Source: Planctomycetia bacterium
GTDB taxonomy: Bacteria > Planctomycetota > Planctomycetia > Pirellulales > UBA1268
DNA length: 33,289 nucleotides
Assembly (NCBI GenBank): GCA_009924545.1
Contig: RFRL01000016.1
Span: forward strand, 1 to 33,289
Direction: 5' to 3'
The first letter of the stretch is position 1, and each line of letters begins with the position of its first letter. The position numbers and the translations under genes were made by a program. The notes below the pieces were generated by a model. The model was not told where the DNA came from and ran no database searches. It was given only the letters and a program-made list of their open reading frames with translations. Of this stretch, positions 13,676-15,617 are shown in pieces.

Positions 13676-14827
13676 TCACCGGGCAAAAGCCCGCCGCAGC
13701 CGCCGGAGGGCCTCCTCCAGCCGGGGCGTGGGACAGGCCATGTTGAGCCGCACGAACCCCGGCGCCCCGAAGTCCCTGCCGTCGGAGGTGCCCAGGCCGG
13801 CTGCCTCGCAGGCCGCCTGGGGGTCGGCCACGCCGGTGCCCCGGCAGTCGATCCACACCAGGTAGGTGGCCTGTGGCGGGATGCTGGCCAAGCCGGGGAT
13901 CGTGGCCACCGAATCCATCACCATCTGGCGGTGCGCGCGGAGCACTGCCACCAAGCGCTGGCGCCACGCTTCGCCGTGGCGCCACGCGGCCTCGGCGGCG
14001 GCGTAGCCCAGGGAGTTGACCATCGGCAACAGCCCGCCCCCCGCCGCCCGCCAGCGACGCCGTTGATCGGGGTCGGGCACGATCGCCGCGGCACAGCACA
14101 ACCCGGCGACGTTCCAGGTCTTCGACGGCGCCACCAGCGTGATCGCCCGGCGCGCCGCCGGATGGTCGAGGCTGGCGAAGGGCAGGTGCCGCGGGCCGCC
14201 GACGTCGTCGTCGAGGAGGAGGTCGGACCAGATCTCGTCGCTGATCACCGTCAGGTCGTGCCGGTCGGCGAGATCGGCGATGCGGAGGAGGTCGGCAGCG
14301 GAAAACACCGTCCCAGTAGGATTGTGGGGATGGCACAGCCAGATGAGCCGTGTTCGCGGCGACACCGCCGCGGCGAGGGCGTCGTGGTCGATCACCCACC
14401 GGTCGCCGGCGGCGACCAGTGGCACGCGCGTGAGCTTCCGGCCGGCCGCCCCGGGCAGGTTGAGGAACGGCGGATAGACCGGGGTGAAGGAGATGATCTC
14501 GTCGTCGGCCGCGGCCAGGAGCCGGGCGGTCACCGCCAGCCCCGGCACCACCCCGGTGATCCCCCTGACGTGGTCCGGATCGATGGCGAAGCCGTGGCGC
14601 CGCAGGAGGTGGGCGGCGAGGCTCGGGGCGAAGCCGGGAGGGTCGTCGGTGTAGCCGAAGACGCCGTGTTCGACGCGCTCGTGGAGCGCTGCCAGCACCG
14701 CCGGGTCGGTGCGGAAGTCCATGTCGGCCACCCACACCGGGATCACGTCCCGCCCGGCCCACCGGTCCCACTTCTCGGAGCCGGTCCCGTGGCGCTCCGG
14801 GCAAGCGGAGAAAAGAGGGTCGATCAT
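13676..14827 (-). CDS. MalY/PatB-type PLP-dependent C-S lyase
   Basis: A 383-residue fold-type I aminotransferase-family protein. WVADMDFRTDPAVLAAL near the N-terminus is the signature that separates the MalY/PatB cystathionine beta-lyase-like group from true aminotransferases. Other marks are FTPVYPPFLN, the HPHNPTGTVF substrate/PLP loop, ISDEIWSDLLLD (the Asp that contacts the PLP ring) and the Schiff-base Lys K236 in APSKTWNVAGL. The C-terminal FVRLNMACPTPRLEEAL holds the carboxylate-binding Arg. It probably cleaves cystathionine or cysteine S-conjugates, giving pyruvate, ammonia and a thiol, in the cytoplasm. The start at 14827 yields MIDPLFSACPERHG, the usual family N-terminus. The same DNA sequence, including an ATG, is repeated 59 bases upstream in another frame. 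Confidence 0.93.
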   Translation of the reverse strand: MIDPLFSACPERHGTGSEKWDRWAGRDVIPVWVADMDFRTDPAVLAALHERVEHGVFGYTDDPPGFAPSLAAHLLRRHGFAIDPDHVRGITGVVPGLAVTARLLAAADDEIISFTPVYPPFLNLPGAAGRKLTRVPLVAAGDRWVIDHDALAAAVSPRTRLIWLCHPHNPTGTVFSAADLLRIADLADRHDLTVISDEIWSDLLLDDDVGGPRHLPFASLDHPAARRAITLVAPSKTWNVAGLCCAAAIVPDPDQRRRWRAAGGGLLPMVNSLGYAAAEAAWRHGEAWRQRLVAVLRAHRQMVMDSVATIPGLASIPPQATYLVWIDCRGTGVADPQAACEAAGLGTSDGRDFGAPGFVRLNMACPTPRLEEALRRLRRAFAR

Positions 14828-14829
14828 GG
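14797..14829. repeat. 33-bp direct repeat, copy at the C-S lyase start
   Basis: Bases 14797-14829 are identical to 14856-14888; the two copies are separated by 26 bases. The repeat covers the lyase start codon and first ten codons. Identity stops abruptly at both ends, as expected from a recent slippage or short tandem duplication. Confidence 0.95.
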
Positions 14830-14886
14830 CGTGCCGCGCCCGCTCGGGTGGGAGCCCGGGCAAGCGGAGAAAAGAGGGTCGATCAT
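14824..14886 (-). other. Possible 20-codon upstream reading frame before the C-S lyase
   Basis: The upstream copy of a 33-bp repeat contains an ATG at 14884-14886 followed by the same first ten codons as the lyase (MIDPLFSACP). Because the repeat period is 59 bases, this copy is in a different frame. It continues as GSHPSGRGTP and stops at a TGA whose first two bases are shared with the lyase ATG (ATGA, 14824-14827). This geometry would allow translational coupling. No strong ribosome site precedes either ATG, so translation of the short frame is only a possibility. Confidence 0.3.
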
Positions 14887-14888
14887 GG
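14856..14888. repeat. 33-bp direct repeat, upstream copy
   Basis: Exact second copy of 14797-14829, offset by 59 bases. It lies in the lyase 5' region, between that gene and the divergent sigma factor gene, and duplicates an ATG out of frame with the lyase. Confidence 0.95.
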
Positions 14889-14951
14889 GAAGGCCGGGCT
14901 CGGTTCGCCGCGGGTGGGCTGGGCCCCGGGATGGGGGTGGGGAAAAATCGT

Positions 14952-14977
14952 TGTAACAGATCGCGCGCCCCACCGTG
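14952..14977 (+). promoter_or_regulatory. Possible ECF-type promoter of the sigma/VWA operon
   Basis: TGTAAC (14952-14957), a 16-base spacer and CGTGAT (from 14974) resemble ECF promoters, whose -35 elements have an AAC core and whose -10 elements begin CGT or CGA. It lies ~55 bases before the sigma factor ATG in an otherwise GC-rich stretch, as expected for autoregulation. This is read by eye from one site only. Confidence 0.35.
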
Positions 14978-15032
14978 ATCAGGGCAGGCACGTGCCCGCG
15001 GCCCTGAGTTCGCCACGAATCGAGGACAGGAC

Positions 15033-15617
15033 ATGGATCCGCCCGGCGACAGGCAGCGGTGGGTGCTGGGGCTCGTCGCCACCCACGAACGGGCCCTGCT
15101 GCGCTACGCCACGCGGCTCCTCGGCGATGCCGATCGGGCCTGCGATGCGGTGCAGCACGCGTTCGTGGAGTTGTGTGCCCAGTCGCCCGCCGCGCTCGAC
15201 GGCAAGGCCGTGCCCTGGCTGTACCGCGTGTGCCGCAACCGGGCCATCGACCTGCTCCGCCAGGCGGGCCGGGAGCGCGGTCTCGATGAAGTCCATCCGG
15301 AGGCAGGACCCATGCGCACCACCGCCGAACCGGTCACCCGCGAGGCCGATCCTGCCGCCCGGGTGGAGTCGGCTGATCTGGTCGGCCATCTCCGGGCCCT
15401 GATCGCCAAACTGCCCCGCCTCCAGGCCGAGACACTCGATCTCTGGTCGGCCGGCCTCTCCTACCGGGAGATCGCCACCGTCACCGGCAAGACCGAAGGC
15501 CATGTCCGCGTTCTCGCCCACCGTGGCCTCTCCACACTGCGGGCGCATCCACTCATCCGCGACCTGCTCGCTTCGTCCATCACCGTCTCTCCTGCCACCG
15601 TCGAGGTGCACCGATGA
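15033..15617 (+). CDS. ECF-type RNA polymerase sigma factor
   Basis: A 194-residue sigma-70-family factor with only regions 2 and 4. Region 2 spans about residues 15-82: ALLRYATRLLGDADRACDAV, then the AFVELC helix and WLYRVCRNRAIDLLRQ, the core-binding and -10-melting helices. A charged linker with EPVTREADPAARVES follows. Region 4 (~120-175) is a helix-turn-helix: LPRLQAETLDLWSAGLSYRE, then IATVTGKTEGHVRVLAHRG, which reads the -35 element. The linker and spacing are those of planctomycete ECF factors. The start at 15033 has a purine-rich GAGGAC upstream. Its stop overlaps the next ATG (ATGA at 15614-15617), so it should be translationally coupled to the VWA protein, whose N-terminal domain probably holds it inactive. 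The C-S lyase gene is divergent upstream. Confidence 0.94.
   Translation: MDPPGDRQRWVLGLVATHERALLRYATRLLGDADRACDAVQHAFVELCAQSPAALDGKAVPWLYRVCRNRAIDLLRQAGRERGLDEVHPEAGPMRTTAEPVTREADPAARVESADLVGHLRALIAKLPRLQAETLDLWSAGLSYREIATVTGKTEGHVRVLAHRGLSTLRAHPLIRDLLASSITVSPATVEVHR

Follow-up and report, generated by a model that had tools for sequence, protein, structure and literature searches.

Short separated direct duplications – exact copies of a short segment, closely spaced, sharply edged and confined to one lineage – arise from replication slippage or template switching. Cysteine attenuation leaders, in which a short frame with Cys codons precedes a sulfur-metabolism gene, contain several such codons and have a terminator between leader and gene. 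A further kind of arrangement links neighbouring frames through translation: as one study sets out, gene pairs whose stop and start codons overlap in ATGA can be coupled by termination-reinitiation (PMC6728339). The locus described here has features of each, namely the exactness, spacing, edges and restricted distribution of the first, a Cys codon in a short frame before a sulfur-metabolism gene as in the second, and the stop/start overlap of the third. Yet it differs from the usual direct duplication in that a start codon is included and a spacer lies outside the copied part; from attenuation leaders in that there is a single Cys codon, taken from the enzyme's own N-terminus, and no terminator; and from coupled pairs in that its upstream frame is 20 codons long, unconserved, born of a duplication and at most putatively translated. 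This arrangement was not found in the portions of the literature covered on start-region duplications that create leader frames and on local template-switch duplications in bacteria.

The window analysed is a 33,289-nucleotide stretch of DNA from a Planctomycetia bacterium, whose genome assembly, a metagenome-type draft, comprises 444 contigs totalling 4.36 Mb. On its minus strand, at 13676–14827, lies a gene for a PatB-family C-S lyase, a pyridoxal-phosphate enzyme of 383 amino acids. The earlier note's reading of this gene as a C-S lyase is borne out by a match to TIGR04350 of 382.6 bits, above the NCBIfam cut-off of 340, which spans residues 7–381 and is thus nearly full length. Translation from 14827 begins MIDPLFSACPERHGTGSEKWD, and since three congeners have an ATG at the same protein position, 14827 is supported as the true start. 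Divergent from the lyase, on the plus strand at 15033–15617, is a gene for an ECF-type sigma factor, followed by one for a YfbK-like von Willebrand protein. Upstream of the sigma gene stands the conserved motif TGTAACAGATC-N11-CGTGATC (14952–14980, plus strand), which fixes how far upstream the lyase leader can extend; its general form, TGTAAC[AG]GATC-N11-CGTGATC, occurs in all six loci with a divergent sigma gene (the last base being missing from the match in L030) and is absent from the remaining 24 of the loci L002–L031. It is probably the sigma factor gene's own promoter.

Within the leader, a 33-bp segment of the lyase start is repeated exactly (33/33 identity, start-to-start spacing 59). 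Copy 2 (14797–14829, minus strand) is the gene's own start, comprising CC, the ATG and the first ten codons, while copy 1 (14856–14888, minus strand) repeats those 33 bp without change in the leader, 59 bp further upstream, just as had been claimed from the sequence. The 26-bp spacer between them (14830–14855, minus strand) does not clearly duplicate the stretch of the lyase gene downstream of copy 2. Chance alone would give about 4e-11 pairs of such length per window at separations up to 400 bp, and cannot account for the repeat. Allowing up to three mismatches, no further site for the 33-mer was found anywhere in the 4.36-Mb assembly, and a dispersed or mobile repeat is accordingly rejected. 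Identity between the copies stops abruptly at both edges of the 33 bp, so a plain 59-bp tandem duplication is rejected as well; under a looser extension, the repeat reaches 49 nt at 86%, with the 16 added positions matching at 9. Near-identical and close together, lineage-specific and not dispersed, the copies have the properties of a short local direct duplication.

Similar repeats occur elsewhere in this genome. A count of separated exact repeats no shorter than 30 bp and no more than 400 bp apart, made across 1,220,318 sampled bases in 101 stretches, gave nine loci (14 pairs), this one included; some of these are tandem arrays, possible coding repeats or lie at a contig end, and some have equally sharp edges. 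The nearest analogue, in L126 (5397–5503), is a 48-bp exact repeat, again with a spacing of 59, in which the stop codon and a hairpin at the end of a gene have been duplicated. The same count over 400,000 sampled bases of a congener (G002) gave five pairs at two loci, four of the pairs being in one array. Six of the listed repeat loci have a spacing of 57–61 bp, a recurrence that may reflect chance, mutational preference or an assembly effect. An array in L231 (2058–2300) has units of 58–59 bp.

The possibility of an assembly effect bears directly on the repeat described here, since a loop in the assembly graph might have duplicated the start region artificially. The draft, with its many contigs, is of a type in which this could happen, the spacing of 59 is seen twice, and another of the repeats (in L184) sits at a contig end; one common assembler also has 59 among its default k-mer lengths, though this may not be the assembler used here. 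Against such an origin, the repeat lies in mid-contig and the surrounding 301-bp stretch matches the assembly here only, and the two copies together span 92 bp, less than one short read. Moreover, the 26-bp spacer is joined to both copies, and reads crossing those joins should therefore exist. We consider an artefact unlikely. A local error of replication or repair, by slippage or template switching, would instead have copied the 33-bp segment of the lyase start 59 bp upstream and left the 26 bp of unrelated spacer between the copies.

Related genomes help to place this event in time. Matches to the lyase were obtained in 64 of 98 genomes searched, and the best 30 loci were taken, one of them the window's own; the leaders compared are thus those of 29 relatives, the best of the 64, including three congeners (L003–L005). 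For each, the gene's first 60 bases were matched against the 200 bases ahead of it (a shorter stretch in L023, where the contig ends), the start being projected from the alignment rather than taken from annotation in relatives outside the genus. None of the 29 leaders, neither those of the three congeners nor those of the 26 others, contains a copy of the start region: the longest exact match between leader and start is 6–12 nt in the relatives and 31 here. A scan of viral contigs found no relative. Congener lyase proteins are 87% (L003) and about 80% (L004 and L005) identical to this one, and at fourfold sites the gene agrees with that of L003, its nearest congener, at 132 of 214 positions; an unconstrained copy dating from the split with L003 would be expected to have lost about one third of its bases. 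As the copies agree at 33 of 33 positions, the duplication is younger than that split. The alternative offered by the earlier note, a fresh mutation, is thus favoured by both the absence from relatives' leaders and the identity of the copies. As a separate observation on the gene itself, seven genomes of genus g8 (G010, G026, G038, G043, G047, G053 and G059) each show a single in-frame TAA or TAG inside the region matching the lyase, possibly through decay or a shifted gene end.

The leader of L003 aligns lengthwise with that of this genome, its ATG lying at a distance of 112 from the CTGTTACAA motif as against 123 here; L004 and L005 have short leaders, with distances of 70 and 69. The L003 counterpart of copy 1 matches it at 16 of 22 positions, a weak and colinear likeness reached in 36 of 2000 shuffles, or in 11 of 2000 for a segment delimited by eye, which is weak evidence; for the spacer, with segments likewise cut by eye and the evidence likewise weak, 1903 of 2000 shuffles were as good. 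Part of the leader similarity could therefore be older than the duplication. From the alignment, the 33-bp segment may either have been inserted or have overwritten older leader sequence.

The copied ATG opens a frame of 20 codons and a TGA (14824–14886, minus strand), which is probably accidental and reads, from 14886 to 14824, MIDPLFSACPGSHPSGRGTP*. Translation agrees with what had been claimed of it: its stop overlaps the true lyase ATG in ATGA, and its first ten residues, with their one Cys, are identical to the lyase's. The identity follows from the copying of the start region, and the Cys belongs to a CP motif that the enzyme conserves in 27 of 29 relatives. Neither the Cys nor the ATGA overlap is thus an independent oddity, because the copied region already begins with ATGA and already carries the conserved Cys. 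The frame would by accident run on to the first available TGA, which lies inside the ATGATC of the lyase start; such an ending is favoured because the lyase starts with ATGA and stop codons are rare in this DNA of 71% GC. When the repeat was pasted at random distances of 0–60 nt in a simulation, an ATGA end resulted in 1449 of 5000 cases (about 29%), and 610 of 5000 shuffled leaders held some ATG frame with such an end. On the plus strand, each copy of the repeat reads GGAG-AAAA-GAGGG-TCGATC-ATG, an SD-like start opening a short frame; these frames span 14826–14978 and 14885–14956 by eye.

Could the upstream frame nonetheless matter for expression of the enzyme? Ribosomes would start at the copied ATG, terminate on the TGA and begin again from the lyase ATG, so that the putative leader frame sets lyase output. 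Overlaps of this type support termination-reinitiation across many prokaryotes, according to the study cited above (PMC6728339). Between the copied ATG and the divergent promoter motif are 64 nt, much like the 69–70 nt that separate the motif from the true ATG in L004 and L005, and the copied codon may therefore sit where initiation once happened; if the lyase promoter lies within that stretch, ribosomes could reach the copied ATG first. A sigma-70-like promoter was looked for and not found. Set against this, an ATGA overlap is, by the simulation, an expected by-product of random placement, and the arrangement lacks conservation in the relatives examined. Among the 28 with an assigned ATG (no ATG start was found in L008, which was left out), a single one, and none of the three congeners, has a frame ending in an ATGA overlap; this frame, in L018, has 11 codons and is unrelated, and in L019, L021 and L022 frames end near or past the lyase start. 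Neither ATG has an SD-like element (GGAG, GAGG or AGGA) in the 20 bases before it as read from the sequence, and folding of the two start regions is close to that of shuffles (z -0.31 and -1.13). The missing SD does not itself speak against translation, because Planctomycetes are among the phyla with few SD genes, as a study of non-SD genes indicates (PMC5397173). Weak translational coupling to the lyase is possible from the sequence, although we think it improbable that the frame sets the enzyme's output. Somewhat less probable still is the stronger version, in which the newborn frame would carry the main initiation and the enzyme would be re-initiated through ATGA, which would amount to an early glimpse of a coupled leader peptide coming into being.

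The single Cys codon and the nature of the downstream gene, a C-S lyase, might also suggest a cysteine-responsive attenuator, in which stalling at that codon would control the enzyme. This candidate we reject as very improbable: the frame's 20 codons include a single Cys, which comes from the copied CP motif, no terminator-like site was found in 14700–15100 – where leader and gene moreover overlap – and folding is no better than that of shuffles. A conserved leader peptide is also rejected, there being no counterpart in the leaders of the 29 relatives. Of the regulatory leader proposed in the earlier note, then, the anatomy stands, but conservation, SD, terminator and unusual folding all fail to accompany it.

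The duplication is real, young, lineage-specific, short and of an ordinary kind. Taken with its sequence context, it is quite probably a recent and near-neutral local event with an accidental upstream frame, and any effect on lyase translation would be incidental; that the frame is accidental is most likely. The species is represented by one genome and the genus by three further congeners, and persistence of the duplication within the species would hint at selection. More generally, the locus counsels caution, as a duplicated gene start automatically yields a gene-like leader frame with a shared Cys and possibly an ATGA end, and selection is not needed for any of these. If the frame were translated and did steer the lyase, it would provide a dated example of the origin of a leader peptide.
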